34,954 bases of DNA from Candidatus Neomarinimicrobiota bacterium (GTDB lineage Bacteria; Fidelibacterota; UBA2242; B5-G15): the NCBI GenBank assembly GCA_017656425.1, contig JACDNV010000021.1, positions 1-34,954 of the forward strand, in the 5' to 3' direction. Positions within the stretch are counted from its first letter, which is position 1. Every line of letters starts with the position of its first letter. The position numbers and the translations under genes were made by a program. Below the pieces are notes generated by a model that was not told the DNA's origin, ran no database searches, and was given only the letters and a program-made list of their open reading frames with translations. Positions 13,269-34,954 of this stretch are shown in pieces.

Positions 13269-14471
13269 ATGGCAAAATCAATTCAAGAGATCAACGAAAA
13301 AATTAAGAAAAGGAAAGCTGTCGTAGTAACAGCTGAAGAAATGATTGAGATTGTGAGGGAAAAAGGTGAATCACAGGCAGCAAAAGAAGTAGATGTAGTT
13401 ACTACGGGAACCTTCGGACCCATGTGCTCCTCCGGGGCTTACATAAATATTGGACATTCCAAACCAAAAATAAAAATTGGAGGTGGAAAAGTATACCTAA
13501 ACAGTGTAGAAACATATCCGGGATTCGCAGCTGTAGATATCTACATAGGTGCTACAGCTCTTCCGCCTGATGATCCAAGAAATAAAATATATCCTGGAGA
13601 ATTCAGATACGGAGGAGGACACGTTATTGAGGATTTTGTCTCCGGAAAGGATATCGTATTAACAGCTAACGCATATGGTACTGATTGCTATCCACGCAAA
13701 GAATTAAAAACTTACATCAACATCAAAGATGTAAACGAAGCAGTACTATTTAATCCCAGAAATGCCTACCAGAATTACAATGTAGCTGTGAACTTAAGCG
13801 ATAAAATAATATATACCTACATGGGCACATTAAAACCAAGACTTGGCAATGCAAACTACTGCAGTGCTGGTCAACTCTCACCACTTTTAAAAGACCCCCA
13901 TTATAAAACAATTGGCATTGGGACAAGAATATTCCTTGGAGGTGGTGTAGGTTACGTTGCCTGGTGGGGTACACAGCATAATCCTGGTGTAAAAAGAGCA
14001 GTTAACGGTACACCTTTATCACCAGCTGGCACCCTTGCCGTCATCGGTGATCTTAAACAAATGAGCTCTAACTGGTTAAAAGGAACAAGCATGCTCGGTT
14101 ATGGAGTTACGCTAACTGTAGGTATTGGCATCCCGATACCAGTCTTAAATGAGGAGATTGCATACTACACTGCTATAAAAGATGAGGATATATACACTCA
14201 GATCGTAGATTATAGCAAAGCATATCCCGAAGGCATCCCTGAAATAATTGGCTCAGTAAACTACGCTCAGTTGCGAAGTGGAAAAATAAAAATAGACGGA
14301 AAAGAAGTTCCAACAGGCGCTTTGTCAAGTTATGCAAAGGCAAGGGAAATAGCAACAATTCTAAAAGATTGGATTCAATCAGGGAAATTCCTTTTAACGG
14401 AATATGTTGAAAAATTGCCATCGTCAGATTCAGAATACAAATTTAAACCACTGAACCTTAGAGAAATATAG
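13269..14471 (+). CDS. DUF39 (COG1900) homocysteine biosynthesis protein
   Basis: A 400-residue member of the DUF39 family. In methanogens and sulfur-metabolising bacteria this family, with a NIL-ferredoxin partner, is implicated in making homocysteine from aspartate semialdehyde and sulfide without O-acyl homoserine. Seen: the N-terminal INEKIKKRKAVVVTAEEM, the family-typical TTGTFGPMCSSGAYINIGH with Cys53, NAYGTDCYPRKE with Cys140, NANYCSAGQLSP with Cys198, and a C-terminal YAKAREIATILKDWI. These cysteines could carry persulfide. It has no CBS or ferredoxin extension. A strong AAGGAGGAGGAG ribosome site precedes the ATG. The NIL-ferredoxin gene is 10 bp downstream, exactly the expected partner. 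Confidence 0.9.
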   Translation: MAKSIQEINEKIKKRKAVVVTAEEMIEIVREKGESQAAKEVDVVTTGTFGPMCSSGAYINIGHSKPKIKIGGGKVYLNSVETYPGFAAVDIYIGATALPPDDPRNKIYPGEFRYGGGHVIEDFVSGKDIVLTANAYGTDCYPRKELKTYINIKDVNEAVLFNPRNAYQNYNVAVNLSDKIIYTYMGTLKPRLGNANYCSAGQLSPLLKDPHYKTIGIGTRIFLGGGVGYVAWWGTQHNPGVKRAVNGTPLSPAGTLAVIGDLKQMSSNWLKGTSMLGYGVTLTVGIGIPIPVLNEEIAYYTAIKDEDIYTQIVDYSKAYPEGIPEIIGSVNYAQLRSGKIKIDGKEVPTGALSSYAKAREIATILKDWIQSGKFLLTEYVEKLPSSDSEYKFKPLNLREI

Positions 14472-16709: not shown

Positions 16710-17624
16710 ATGAACAAACCTATTATTGAAAAAATCAAAAAACTGAAAAAAGAAAGAAATGCGGTAATTCTTGTTCACAACTATCAGCTTCCAGAGGTAC
16801 AGGATATAGCGGATTATATAGGAGACTCACTGGGGTTAAGTATACAGGCGAGCAAAACTGAGGCTGATGTAATTATATTCTGTGGTGTGTACTTTATGGC
16901 TGAGACGGCAAAAATCTTATCCCCTGATAAGATTGTCCTTATACCCGACAAAACAGCAGGTTGCCCGATGGCAGATATGATTACAAAAGAAAAACTTGTA
17001 GAGCTAAAAAAAACTAACCCTGATGCGAAAGTTGTAGCTTACGTCAATACTACTGCTGAGGTTAAAACTGAATGTGATATCTGTTGTACTTCATCCAACG
17101 CTGAACTAGTTGTTAAAAATTTTACAAAAGATATTGAAAAGTTAATTTTTATTCCTGACAAATATCTTGGTAGCTATATTGCAAATAAACTTGGCAAAGA
17201 ATTCATTCTATACGATGGCTATTGCCCAAGCCATGTAAAAATAATGGAAGAAGATATAAAAAGAGAAAAAGAAAAGCATCCAGAAGCAAAAATACTTGTA
17301 CATCCAGAATGCATCTCAGAAGTCATAAAGCTTGCTGATGCTGTACTTTCTACTGATGGCATGGTAAAATATGCAAAAAATTCAAATGCTAAAGAGTTTA
17401 TAATTGGTACAGAGATTGGAATAATTCACCGGCTGCAAAAAGAAAATCCTGATAAAAAATTTTATCCGGCTTCAAATCTTGCCATCTGCCCAAATATGAA
17501 AAAAATAACATTAGAAAAAGTCTACTGGTCACTCGAAGAAATGAAGTACGAGGTTATCCTTAATAAGGAAACTATCGAAAAAGCAAGAAATCCAATTGAA
17601 AAAATGATTTCACTTGTAAAATGA
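16710..17624 (+). CDS. nadA: Quinolinate synthase A
   Basis: The 304-residue enzyme condenses iminoaspartate with dihydroxyacetone phosphate into quinolinate in NAD synthesis. It depends on a [4Fe-4S] cluster. The three cluster cysteines appear as Cys85 (KTAGCPMAD), Cys172 (DGYCPSH) and Cys260 (AICPNMK). VHNYQ, the YVNTTAEVK segment and HPEC are family hallmarks. The length matches the compact thermophile-type enzymes. nadB and nadC are not beside it; an L-aspartate dehydrogenase or oxidase must lie elsewhere. It ends the sulfur operon, and its need for an Fe-S cluster is the only visible link to its neighbours. Confidence 0.95.
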   Translation: MNKPIIEKIKKLKKERNAVILVHNYQLPEVQDIADYIGDSLGLSIQASKTEADVIIFCGVYFMAETAKILSPDKIVLIPDKTAGCPMADMITKEKLVELKKTNPDAKVVAYVNTTAEVKTECDICCTSSNAELVVKNFTKDIEKLIFIPDKYLGSYIANKLGKEFILYDGYCPSHVKIMEEDIKREKEKHPEAKILVHPECISEVIKLADAVLSTDGMVKYAKNSNAKEFIIGTEIGIIHRLQKENPDKKFYPASNLAICPNMKKITLEKVYWSLEEMKYEVILNKETIEKARNPIEKMISLVK

Positions 17625-29882: not shown

Positions 29883-30539
29883 ATGAAAAAGGAAATTTAT
29901 CTTAATAACAAAAATATAGAAAAGAAGGCAGAAAAATTTTTATTGTTAAGAAATAAATTCAAAAAAAGAGAAATTGAATTACTTCCTTATAGAACAGGCA
30001 TATTAGTTATCGATATGCAAAAATATTTTACAGACACTTCATCACATGCCTACATTCCAAGTGTACCTCCAGTTATTAGACGAATAAAATCACTTATAAA
30101 TATAGCAGAACAAACAAGCATGAAAATTATTTTTACAAAACATATTGATAAGGATAATTCATCTCCGATGACACGTTGGTGGGAGAAGTCCATAAAACCT
30201 AATAATCAGTACAGTCAATTAACACCTGGATTAGTTGATAGCATCGAAAATTTTGTGTTAATAGAAAAAGACCAATATGACGCCTTTTTCAATACAAACC
30301 TCGAGGATTTACTAAAAAACAACAATATAACTACTGTAATCATAACAGGAGTACTCACTCACCTTTGTTGTGAAACCACTGCAAGGTCAGCTTTTATCAG
30401 AGGATTTAATGTTTTATTCCCTGTAGATTGTACAGCCACCTATAATGAACAATTTCATAAAGCCGCACTTTTAAATCTTGCACATGGATTTGCAATATTA
30501 ACGTCAGCAAAAGAAATATATGGAAAACTTTCACATTAG
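29883..30539 (+). CDS. Isochorismatase/nicotinamidase-family cysteine hydrolase
   Basis: The 218-residue protein has the alpha/beta fold of isochorismatase-like amidohydrolases. Its triad is Asp44 (ILVIDMQKYF), Lys129 (LIEKDQYDAFF) and Cys162 (VLTHLCCETTARSAF). The cis-peptide segment GVLTH precedes the nucleophile. Family members hydrolyse amides such as nicotinamide, N-carbamoyl compounds or ureides; the substrate is unknown. A basic N-terminal extension (residues 1-35) precedes the fold. No SD is seen. The flavoprotein gene begins 20 nt before its stop, so it is the first gene of a tightly overlapping trio. Confidence 0.9.
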   Translation: MKKEIYLNNKNIEKKAEKFLLLRNKFKKREIELLPYRTGILVIDMQKYFTDTSSHAYIPSVPPVIRRIKSLINIAEQTSMKIIFTKHIDKDNSSPMTRWWEKSIKPNNQYSQLTPGLVDSIENFVLIEKDQYDAFFNTNLEDLLKNNNITTVIITGVLTHLCCETTARSAFIRGFNVLFPVDCTATYNEQFHKAALLNLAHGFAILTSAKEIYGKLSH

Positions 30540-31389
30540 TATAATTGGAGCCGGTCCAGCCGGTATGTTTTGCGCAATTCAGTTAAAAAAATATGGATAC
30601 GATCCAGTTATATTTGAAAAAGATAAAATTGGGGGGCTGTCGAGAGAAGCCTACTTTATTAATAATATACCAGGATTCCCGAATGGTATTAATGGGATAC
30701 ATTTTGCAAATCTATTACAAAAGCATCTCGAAAAATTTAATATTAAATTTATTAATTCGAAGATTGAGAAAGTGATATACGAAAACAATCAATTTATCCT
30801 AACAACCCTATTTGGTAACTATTCGTGTAATATACTTATTGTCGCATCAGGTACAAAACCAAAACCTTCAAATACAAAAATTAGTGAAAAACTAAAATCA
30901 AAAGTTTTTTATAGCCTGGATAACCTTAGAGACTATAAGGCTAAATGCATAGCAATAATTGGTTCAGGTGATATAGCCTTTGATTATGCACTCAGCTTAT
31001 CCAACAAAAATAAAGTAATAATCTTAAATCGATCAAGCAAACCAAAAGCGATACCAGCCCTCATTGAGGAAGCAGAGAAAAAACATAATATAAAATTACT
31101 AAATGAGACTGAGCTAGTAAAGGTAGAAGAATATAGAGACAGATTGTTACTAACCTTAAATAATCTAAAAGAAATAGTAGTTGATCACATTCTTTTTGCA
31201 ATTGGAAGAGAGCCCGAGCTTGATTTTATTGATAAAAAAATCATTAAGAAGCACAATGTTTTAAATATGAGCGGGAAATTATATATCATAGGGGACGCAA
31301 AAAACGGAATTTATAGACAAATAACGATAGCAGCAGGAGGGGGAATAAGATGTGCAATGGAAATCCACAATCGGTTAAAACAAACATAA
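30520..31389 (+). CDS. Thioredoxin-reductase-like FAD/NAD(P)H oxidoreductase lacking the CxxC
   Basis: The 289-residue flavoprotein has the FAD Rossmann motif GAGPAG (10-15), the NAD(P)H motif IGSGDIAFDYA (147-157), the GDA of the second FAD site (258-260) and YRQITIAAGGG (265-275) of thioredoxin reductases. The redox CxxC that normally lies just before the NAD(P)H motif is absent; only Cys143 is near. TrxR-like proteins without CxxC include ferredoxin-NADP reductases of the YumC type, so an electron-donating role to a partner is plausible. It overlaps the hydrolase gene by 20 nt and the radical SAM gene by 40 nt. It is shorter than YumC-type reductases (about 330-350). Confidence 0.85.
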   Translation: MENFHISIIGAGPAGMFCAIQLKKYGYDPVIFEKDKIGGLSREAYFINNIPGFPNGINGIHFANLLQKHLEKFNIKFINSKIEKVIYENNQFILTTLFGNYSCNILIVASGTKPKPSNTKISEKLKSKVFYSLDNLRDYKAKCIAIIGSGDIAFDYALSLSNKNKVIILNRSSKPKAIPALIEEAEKKHNIKLLNETELVKVEEYRDRLLLTLNNLKEIVVDHILFAIGREPELDFIDKKIIKKHNVLNMSGKLYIIGDAKNGIYRQITIAAGGGIRCAMEIHNRLKQT

Positions 31390-32306
31390 ATATGAGAATA
31401 ATTTCAACAACAGGTAGAGAAGATCTTGCTACTGTTTATACCGCTACAATTAATGGAAAATACGTGGAATTCGTTGAATCTTTACAGCCACCCTTAGACA
31501 TTTCACAGAAATGGGTACTCATTGTTTCAACTTTGAGTGGTTGCCCTATAAAATGTAAAATATGTGATGCAGGTGATTATTATAAAGGGAAATTAACTAT
31601 TGATGAAATACTATCTCAAATAGACTATATGGTTCTTAAAAAATTTCCTGACAGAAAAATAAAAACAAAAAAGTTTAAGATTCAATTTGCGCGAGTTGGA
31701 GAACCAGCTTTCAATCCTGCTGTTTTAGAAGTAATCGACAAATTAAAAACTTATTATTTAGCTGATGGAATAATGCCGTGCATTTCTACAATAGCTCCAG
31801 AGGGTTATGATTACTTTTTTGAAAAACTACTTAAAGTAAAAAAAGAAAAATACCCACATAATTTCCAATTACAATTTTCTATACATACAACAGATCCTGA
31901 TTTGAGAGAATGGCTAATACCTGCAAAAAAATGGAACCTGGATAAAATCGCAATGTATGGTGAAAGATTTTATGATCCCGGTGGAAGAAAAATCACCTTA
32001 AATTTTGCTATAAATGAAAATTCCCCGGTCGATTCGGATATCTTACTGAAACACTACAACCCCGATATCTTTCTTATTAAACTCACACCGATAAATCCTA
32101 CCTATAATGCTCTTCATTATAATCTGGCACACCTTGACTTTGAAAATTATTTAAAAAATATGCAAAACAAATTAACTGATGCAGGTTATGAGGTTATAAT
32201 AAGTATAGGAGAATTGGAAGAAAACAAAATAGGTAGTAACTGTGGTCAGTTCATAAAAAAGCACAGATATACCTCACAAGTTAATAGGTTTGCATATAAG
32301 TATTAA
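31350..32306 (+). CDS. Short RlmN/Cfr-like radical SAM protein lacking the resolving cysteine
   Basis: The 318-residue protein has the radical SAM cluster C65-PIK-C69-KI-C72, RVGEP (115-119), a SIHTTDPDLREWLIPAKKWN segment as in RlmN, and IGSNCGQF with Cys298 at the position of RlmN Cys355, the methyl carrier. RlmN and Cfr carry a second cysteine seven residues before the cluster (Cys118 and Cys105); here that position is Ile58. The N-terminal accessory domain of RlmN is also missing. It is therefore a divergent homologue with unknown substrate. The start at 31350 follows GGAGGGGG at about 9 nt, though that sequence also encodes a conserved Gly run of the upstream protein. ATG 31392, 2 nt past the flavoprotein stop, is the alternative. 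It is the last gene of the trio. Confidence 0.88.
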   Translation: MCNGNPQSVKTNINMRIISTTGREDLATVYTATINGKYVEFVESLQPPLDISQKWVLIVSTLSGCPIKCKICDAGDYYKGKLTIDEILSQIDYMVLKKFPDRKIKTKKFKIQFARVGEPAFNPAVLEVIDKLKTYYLADGIMPCISTIAPEGYDYFFEKLLKVKKEKYPHNFQLQFSIHTTDPDLREWLIPAKKWNLDKIAMYGERFYDPGGRKITLNFAINENSPVDSDILLKHYNPDIFLIKLTPINPTYNALHYNLAHLDFENYLKNMQNKLTDAGYEVIISIGELEENKIGSNCGQFIKKHRYTSQVNRFAYKY

Positions 32307-32960: not shown

Positions 32961-34954
32961 TTACTTAACTAACAACATCTTTTTAACCTGTACGTAATGC
33001 TCTGATCCATCTTCTGATCTTGCTACGAACCGCATTAAATATACTCCACTCTGCAGATTTGTCCCATCAAATTGTACCTCGTATATTCCTGCCTGCTTCA
33101 TTCCTTTTTCCAATGTTAATATTTCTTTACCTAATAAATCATATATCTTTATATCAATATGACTTGTCAATGGTAATTGGTATCTAAATATAGTCACAGG
33201 ATTAAATGGATTTGGATATGGATTTGATATACCATAAGTTTCTGGAATTACAATTACATTAATAGATTTAGAATTATCATAAGCAATTTTTTTACTTAGC
33301 AACAAATCACTTTTAGGACCGCAATTGTTCATTACGATTGATGGTACATTAGCAACAGGGTCTAAATCAAAATTGTACGGTAAATCAAAAACTGGATATG
33401 AATTTGGCATAAAGTCTGGCTCACTGCACCCATCAAAAACGCAATTATTCCAACCAATCTCCCCATCATCCGAACCACCATAATCGGCGAATGGATCATC
33501 TACATTATCAAAATAGGTATTTTCTACTCTTATGTGACATTCTTTTCCAGCTCCGATGCAATAATCGGTGTTGTTACTACTATAATAACAATTATATACA
33601 TGAACATGTCCAAATCTCACCCTCGGTTGTCTTCCTTTTACTCCATTATCATACCAATTATGATGTAATGTCACATGTAGTTTGCCTCTATCACTAGTAC
33701 GACTATCACTATTACCGATTAAATGAGCATAAGAATGATCATCAGGATTATCAAACCAGAAGTGGGACCAAGAAATAGTCACATAGTCAGCTTCTCGAAC
33801 TACAGAACATAATTCATCTTTACTATCATGAAACGCACAGTGAGTAATAAAAACATTCGTTCCACCACTAATTTCCAATACATCTCCGTCAGAAGGACCA
33901 AATGTCAGGTTAGCAATAATATAATTATTACCTTGGATTTTTATAGTACCACCGTAAAGTCCAGAAGATTTGCCAACACCAATAATAGTCTTATTTGAAC
34001 CTATCAAAACATCCTCACCAAGATCAAATCTACCATCAACATAGATTACAGCTGGATCATCATTATCAACAGCTGATTTAAATTCAGATGCACTGGATAC
34101 AGTTATAGGTTCTACATCTCCTCCGCCCGTAGCATTCCTACCGTAACCATCTGGAACAATAGCAATTTGCCCCCCTTGACCTTCCTCAGTAACTGTAATC
34201 TCACATGTAGCCATATATCCACCATCTTCTGTGGTAGCTGTTATAGTCGCCGTACCTGCACTCTCCCCAGTTACTAATCCAGATGAACTAACAGTTGCTA
34301 CCGATGGATTACTTGAACTCCATGTCACGTTCTTATTTGTTGCATTGGAAGGCTCTACCGTTGCCGTCAATTGTACAGTCTCACCTACTCCTATCGAAGC
34401 CGTCGTTGGTTCTACACTAACTCCTGTCACATGTACAACCTGTGTTCCTCCATCTTTAAGAGTAATAGAAATATAATCAATATTGGGTAACCCTGATGAA
34501 TTGGTCGCTTCCAAACGAATCTGCCTTGTCCCCTGTGATAATGTTACATCAATAGATACTTCATCCCAATTATCCCACGACCCTGTTGGTTGAAAGTCTA
34601 CATTGGATACTACTACATTACCATCAACCTTAACCTGTGCTGTCCTGTTTGTTGAAGACCCATTTGCATACCGCCATTCAAGCGTATAAGTTCCACTTTC
34701 TGTAACATTTACCTCCCAGGTAATACCAACACCATTCTCATTAACAGTATTTATAAAACCATCACCCGTATACCCCACATGATTATCATCAACACTACCA
34801 TCATAGCTTAATACTCCGGACTCATTCTCTTGAATGACAATGGTTGTTACTACAACTTCAGTAACTGTAACTTCACATGTAGCCATATATCCACCATCCT
34901 CTGTGGTAGCTGTTATAGTCGCCGTACCTGCACTCTCCCCAGTTACTAATCCAG
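32961..34954 (-). CDS. Secreted modular pectate lyase (PL1) with CBM, Big2 and type IX sorting tail; 5' part outside the window
   Basis: The frame is open to base 34954, so the N-terminus, including the signal peptide, is missing; 22 further codons precede the Met at 34886. Numbered from that Met: end of a Big2 domain (to 10), a CBM6/35-like sugar-binding module (about 17-143), a Big2 Ig-like domain (about 150-234), a PL1 pectate lyase domain (about 245-530), and a FlgD-like/T9SS sorting tail (about 553-641). The lyase domain shows VTISWSHFWFDN and HHNWYDNGVKGRQPRVRFGHVHVYN with the catalytic Arg region (RQPRVR, 419-424). The tail is SNPYPNPFNP, IYDLLGKEI, LQSGVYLMRF. It cleaves polygalacturonate by beta-elimination, probably at the cell surface or outside. 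The Big2 segment is repeated at the right edge. Confidence 0.93.
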   Translation of the reverse strand, partial: GLVTGESAGTATITATTEDGGYMATCEVTVTEVVVTTIVIQENESGVLSYDGSVDDNHVGYTGDGFINTVNENGVGITWEVNVTESGTYTLEWRYANGSSTNRTAQVKVDGNVVVSNVDFQPTGSWDNWDEVSIDVTLSQGTRQIRLEATNSSGLPNIDYISITLKDGGTQVVHVTGVSVEPTTASIGVGETVQLTATVEPSNATNKNVTWSSSNPSVATVSSSGLVTGESAGTATITATTEDGGYMATCEITVTEEGQGGQIAIVPDGYGRNATGGGDVEPITVSSASEFKSAVDNDDPAVIYVDGRFDLGEDVLIGSNKTIIGVGKSSGLYGGTIKIQGNNYIIANLTFGPSDGDVLEISGGTNVFITHCAFHDSKDELCSVVREADYVTISWSHFWFDNPDDHSYAHLIGNSDSRTSDRGKLHVTLHHNWYDNGVKGRQPRVRFGHVHVYNCYYSSNNTDYCIGAGKECHIRVENTYFDNVDDPFADYGGSDDGEIGWNNCVFDGCSEPDFMPNSYPVFDLPYNFDLDPVANVPSIVMNNCGPKSDLLLSKKIAYDNSKSINVIVIPETYGISNPYPNPFNPVTIFRYQLPLTSHIDIKIYDLLGKEILTLEKGMKQAGIYEVQFDGTNLQSGVYLMRFVARSEDGSEHYVQVKKMLLVK
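34190..34276 (-). repeat. Big2-coding direct repeat, copy 1 (spaced 672 bp)
   Basis: The stretch coding GLVTGESAGTATITATTEDGGYMATCEITVTE (residues 203-234) is nearly identical at nucleotide level to the sequence at 34861-34954. There is one difference (TCT for CCT) in the shared Ser/Pro-region codon run and a few more near the TVTE end. The 672-bp offset equals 224 codons, so the reading frame is kept. Confidence 0.9.
34861..34954 (-). repeat. Big2-coding direct repeat, copy 2, running off the right edge
   Basis: It matches the 34190-34276 copy with a 672-bp spacing and continues past the window end. A further CBM-Big2 unit may therefore lie outside, making the gene a tandem module array. 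Confidence 0.85.

Follow-up and report, generated by a model that had tools for sequence, protein, structure and literature searches.

A three-gene cassette encodes an RlmN/Cfr-like radical SAM protein family that keeps the carrier cysteine and lacks the resolving cysteine

Introduction

The closest described relatives of the protein studied here are RlmN, which methylates C2 of A2503 in 23S rRNA and C2 of A37 in tRNA (TIGR00048; PDB 3rfa/5hr7), and Cfr, which methylates C8 of A2503 in 23S rRNA (NF000424). Two cysteines are the accepted mark of the class A radical SAM methylases (PMC9692996). In RlmN, E105 activates the carrier cysteine for methylation, C118 is required for product release, and M176 is believed to stabilise the cysteinyl radical (PMC9692996). 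Two groups of phage proteins are also related: the radical SAM protein of Bacteroides phage Versailles (phrog_24834, no assigned function) and a split family found in Moorella phage MTATph1, Kehishuvirus, and Pectobacterium phage Arno18, with a class-A-like core that lacks both M176 and the cysteine seven residues before the cluster motif (position -7).

Here we analyzed a stretch of 34,954 nucleotides from a Candidatus Neomarinimicrobiota bacterium (contig JACDNV010000021.1), hereafter the window. An original prediction, made from the sequence alone, had described in it an RlmN/Cfr-like radical SAM protein without the resolving cysteine.

The radical SAM gene and its catalytic residues

The gene of interest is the last of three on the forward strand:

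29883 to 30539, + strand: isochorismatase-fold cysteine hydrolase (I), which opens the cassette (PF00857, 146 bits, above the cut-off)
30520 to 31389, + strand: TrxB-like FAD/NAD(P) oxidoreductase (F), the middle gene (PF13738/PF07992)
31392 to 32306, + strand: RlmN/Cfr-like radical SAM protein (R), 304 aa from its probable start (relatives' starts, model, PDB match)

The open reading frame placed by the original prediction at 31350-32306 (+) is present, but the gene probably starts further downstream. The start codon of the relatives corresponds to the ATG at 31392, 2 bases beyond where the upstream gene stops (31389), and the first 14 residues of the 31350 version fall within that gene. As the relatives start at this ATG, the product is probably a protein of 304 aa. 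Residue numbers below follow the 31350 start; 14 is to be subtracted for the corrected one.

Pfam recognized only a radical SAM core in R, and weakly (20 bits). The top NCBIfam model was that of Cfr (NF000424, CfrAB; 44.3 bits, E 1.4e-11, cut-off 530), followed by that of RlmN (TIGR00048; 41.3 bits, cut-off 290), and R reached neither of these curated family cut-offs. An AlphaFold model built from 44 family members (pLDDT 90.4, pTM 0.89) had E. coli RlmN as its best match among the solved structures of the PDB (E 1e-12, TM 0.68), with 16-18% identity over the fold. The alignment with full-length E. coli RlmN gave the following equivalences:

31467 to 31469, + strand: Glu40, equivalent to RlmN E105 (alignment; invariant in 76 family members)
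31521 to 31523, + strand: Ile58 (Ile44 in the 304-aa numbering), opposite the resolving Cys118 of RlmN (alignment)
31542 to 31565, + strand: CxxxCxxC [4Fe-4S] cluster motif, Cys65/69/72, equivalent to RlmN C125/C129/C132 (alignment; invariant in 76/76)
31689 to 31691, + strand: Ala114, at the position of RlmN M176 in the MGMGEP motif (alignment)
32241 to 32243, + strand: Cys298 in GSNCGQ, equivalent to the methyl-carrier Cys355 of RlmN (alignment, sequence)

The central claims of the original prediction are borne out by this alignment: Ile58 faces C118, the carrier Cys298 in SNCGQF is retained opposite C355, and the N-terminal accessory domain is absent, as RlmN residues 1 to ~80 have no aligned counterpart in R. 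Also kept are the GEP motif, the equivalents of S120, S211, S233, R242, and N312, and the beta extension beside the core. The M176 position, a change beyond those named in the original prediction, is occupied by Ala in 86% of 29 aligned family members. As the residues for loading are kept and C118 and M176 are replaced, the first half-reaction looks intact and the second altered, as far as an alignment can tell. The two release residues travel together across the groups compared: RlmN, Cfr, and phage group A have the two, and the R clade and two other clades without Cys at -7 have different residues at both positions.

R resembles RlmN in its radical SAM core, CxxxCxxC and GEP motifs, E105 equivalent, carrier Cys in a C-terminal CGQ, and fold, and the same likenesses hold for Cfr. 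It differs from RlmN in lacking Cys118, M176, and the N-terminal domain, in its low identity over the fold, and in its place in a three-gene cassette. Cfr, unlike R, keeps both cysteines (C338 as the carrier), and groups with RlmN and not with R in the tree described below. Since the resolving Cys, M176, the N-terminal domain, and the family cut-offs were all tested and R has none of these residues or regions and falls under the cut-offs, we did not assign the R family to RlmN or Cfr. It is apparently undescribed; no paper on the cassette or on such an RlmN-like enzyme was found among the open-access papers searched.

Distribution and phylogeny of the family

A scan of one genome per species gave 448 stretches confirmed by tblastn, of which 80 were kept. 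These 80 relatives are 50-59% identical to R and come from many bacterial phyla as well as from Methanomicrobia and Thermoplasmata; in the source phylum, R is present in 10 of 245 genomes. Among 76 members, the residue at -7 is Ile in 51, Leu in 12, Met in 8, Thr in 2, Val in 1, and Cys in 2, that is, hydrophobic in 72 and other than Cys in 74. The original prediction proposed to look for a clade with Ile or Val at this position; the clade that exists carries Ile, Leu, or Met, and Val occurs once in 76. The carrier Cys is invariant (76/76), together with its CG context, the Glu equivalent to E105, and CxxxCxxC, and no other conserved Cys that could compensate was found among the family members. 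The two proteins with Cys at -7 (loci L078 and L087) form a sister pair in the tree and are members of the cassette family like the others; a regain or chance is possible for this pair. Given the family-wide counts and the position of this pair, the missing Cys is a trait of the clade, and a chance loss or a sequencing error is ruled out.

In an unrooted maximum-likelihood tree, whose bootstrap is not fully settled and from which gain cannot be told from loss of the resolving Cys, the R clade was supported at 96/97 and its grouping with the phage clade that has Thr at -7 (R+V) at 100/98. Outside R+V lie RlmN, Cfr, and a phage group that has Cys at -7; the split phage proteins, with Gly at -7, form another group apart. 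At least two phage clades share the absence of Cys at -7. The Versailles-type phage proteins, the sister clade (~32% identity to R), likewise have a residue other than Cys at -7 and keep the carrier Cys. Unlike R, they have Thr at -7 in 14/14 and ITCGN in place of SNCGQ, and no hydrolase or flavoprotein recurs beside them.

The source genome carries a separate canonical rlmN (C8:42829-43845; 385 bits, cut-off 290) with both cysteines, which agrees with the proposal that R is a paralogue and rules out R as the only RlmN of its genome. A canonical rlmN was found in 11 of the 12 relatives searched. R had no plasmid match that would make it a mobile plasmid gene. A viral origin was also rejected: the cassette family was not found in viral contigs, where only distant phage relatives occur.

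A conserved three-gene cassette

The surroundings of R were surveyed in 81 loci (80 relatives and the window), many of the incomplete loci ending at contig edges. F is present in 71/81 and I in 51/81. Where they co-occur, the order is always I-F-R; 45 loci have the full cassette and another 20 have F-R. F and R mostly share a few bases at their junction (the computed gaps exclude the F stop codon). The pairwise distances of the I, F, and R proteins correlate at 0.78-0.82 over 42 loci, a figure that partly reflects shared descent; conservation is highest in R.

I keeps the Asp-Lys-Cys catalytic triad, with DMQ, KxQYDAF, and LCCETT conserved in 48 sequences. It was also considered as a nicotinamidase, and this was rejected, as no such equivalog scored above its cut-off. 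F scored 133 bits against TIGR01292, under the cut-off of 343, and no column corresponding to the redox CxxC of thioredoxin reductase was found in 68 F sequences. Among 87 flanking genes, the only recurrent extra partners were MttB-type methyltransferases and NadA, and there were no RNA-modification genes. PADLOC gave no match to a known defense system for R or I and one weak, irrelevant match for F. No riboswitch or structured RNA was matched in Rfam.

In four loci (L018, L039, L046, and L055), which probably represent two pairs of relatives, the cassette directly follows an MttB-like gene, and nadA is found downstream on the opposite strand. A gene for a corrinoid protein and one for a homocysteine methyltransferase domain precede the MttB-like gene and the cassette in L039. 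The nadA gene of the window (16710-17624) is 12 kb from the cassette, a distance at which it has little meaning alone.

Split relatives in phages

Records of cultured phages and 59 viral contigs were used to describe the split family. Here the core related to R stops before the carrier segment, and all 58 readable split cores have Gly at -7. A separate gene of 34-68 aa, mostly 5-40 nt downstream of the core, encodes the carrier-Cys segment, xxGYDYAVAIATxxEIxxGAACGQL (L096:5833-6795, L099:4824-5904, L101:3842-4764, and viral contigs L105-L161). A profile made from the C-terminus of intact enzymes found a separate CGQ open reading frame in 59/64 loci with 8461 ORFs tested, and its only four matches without CGQ were all weak. 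The family differs from R by its Gly at -7, its carrier Cys on a separate short peptide, and its position outside R+V. Although a split core and its peptide look like a maturase and its precursor, the match of the peptide is to the C-terminus of RlmN-type enzymes. Two tandem copies of the carrier peptide are present in Vibrio phage D479.

A NAMPT gene lies within ~3 kb of the split core in 10/62 loci, and the order NMNAT-NAMPT-core, directly upstream, is found in L123, L160, and the L147/L149/L151 group. NAMPT genes, some with NMNAT-Nudix, stand beside phage cores in L123, L147/L149/L151, L160, L115, L125, L140, L143, and L108, as well as in L100:3125-5822, and in several of these they share the strand of the core and immediately precede it. 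This neighborhood suggests a role for these phage radical SAM cores in NAD+ metabolism. In Vibrio phage 166E36-1, a Cys-bearing core likewise follows a NAMPT gene. A second radical SAM gene is inserted between NAMPT and the split core in L115:1745-2988 and L125:1508-2736; it overlaps a gene for a protein of ~112 aa with a C-terminal DDxCSRG(F)G tail, similar to a precursor peptide.

Proposed mechanism and alternatives

The original prediction found a new target, RNA or not, the attractive reading. Given the missing N-terminal domain and the tie to two metabolic genes, R indeed most likely has a target that is not the RlmN site. The domain loss and gene context point to a small molecule, which is probably what R acts on. 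Our leading explanation, held tentatively and at somewhat less than even confidence, is that R is a radical SAM enzyme of a separate family built on the class A plan, which would load a methyl group on its cysteine as RlmN does, release the adduct by another route, and act on a small molecule. SAM would methylate Cys298, and a second SAM would generate a Cys-CH2 radical that adds to an unsaturated carbon of the small molecule, perhaps in a heteroaromatic ring. The adduct might then be freed by a base other than cysteine or by a group of the substrate itself. F may give electrons for the cluster and for regeneration of the cysteine, and I may hydrolyse a precursor or the product.

However, the conserved Cys298 could serve a role other than methyl carrying. 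In the main rival explanation, which we consider somewhat doubtful, R is a radical SAM enzyme that does not methylate and uses an RlmN-like scaffold, with Cys298 as a hydrogen-atom donor or radical relay. The loss of C118 and M176 throughout the clade would be expected if no adduct forms, and spore photoproduct lyase finishes its radical reaction with a single Cys (PMC9692996); however, the equivalent of E105, the activator of the carrier Cys, is invariant, as is the CG around Cys298.

It is unlikely, in our estimate, that R is still an RNA methylase that binds RNA without the N-terminal domain and has its adduct released by another base or an outside thiol. The beta extension and the equivalents of E105, S120, S211, N312, and C355 are what such an enzyme would keep. 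Nevertheless, the absence of the RlmN N-terminal domain, the stable association with hydrolase and flavoprotein genes, the lack of RNA-modification neighbors, and the score of 41 bits against a TIGR00048 cut-off of 290 all speak against it. We regard it as quite improbable that the adduct never leaves as a methyl group, with R making a thioether-linked product or modifying itself once per molecule. The C118A variant of RlmN does remain cross-linked to its RNA (PMC9692996; PDB 5hr6/5hr7), and in the phage branch with Gly at -7 the carrier Cys sits on a small peptide of its own. However, the cassette R has its Cys in cis, where a single turnover would be costly, and no tandem carrier copies were seen in the R clade. 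Finally, since two of the catalytic residues of RlmN are missing from R, a decaying or dead copy might be suspected, a reading that is hardly credible with ~50 positions of R invariant across bacteria and archaea and with R the most conserved cassette protein.

If the favored reading, loading on Cys298 with a small-molecule target, is true, class A chemistry extends beyond RNA. The flavoprotein and hydrolase that abut R offer a handle on its substrate. A protein family spread among bacteria and archaea with one of the two class A cysteines, and without the other and its partner Met, is also a natural test of which residues load the methyl group and which release it.

A broader proposal, which we put forward as rather doubtful, is that a branch of class A without the resolving Cys would comprise the cellular three-gene pathway, with a small heteroaromatic molecule as its substrate (possibly of the pyridine/NAD type), and the phage systems near NAD+-synthesis genes, in which the carrier Cys would have become a detachable peptide; the resolving Cys would then be special to the RNA branch and lie outside the core mechanism of the class. 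The pyridine/NAD-type target is proposed from the NAMPT/NMNAT neighbors in phages, and support from the cassette itself is thin.

Other features of the window

A protein encoded at 13269-14471 is partly similar to methanogenesis marker 16 (115 bits, cut-off 364); its gene is flanked by cysK and cysE in a bacterial cluster of sulfur genes. On the reverse strand, 32961-34886 (-) encodes a large protein in which, by eye and from the translation, repeats of an Ig-like segment, a part resembling pectate lyase, and a type IX-like C-terminal sorting tail can be seen.
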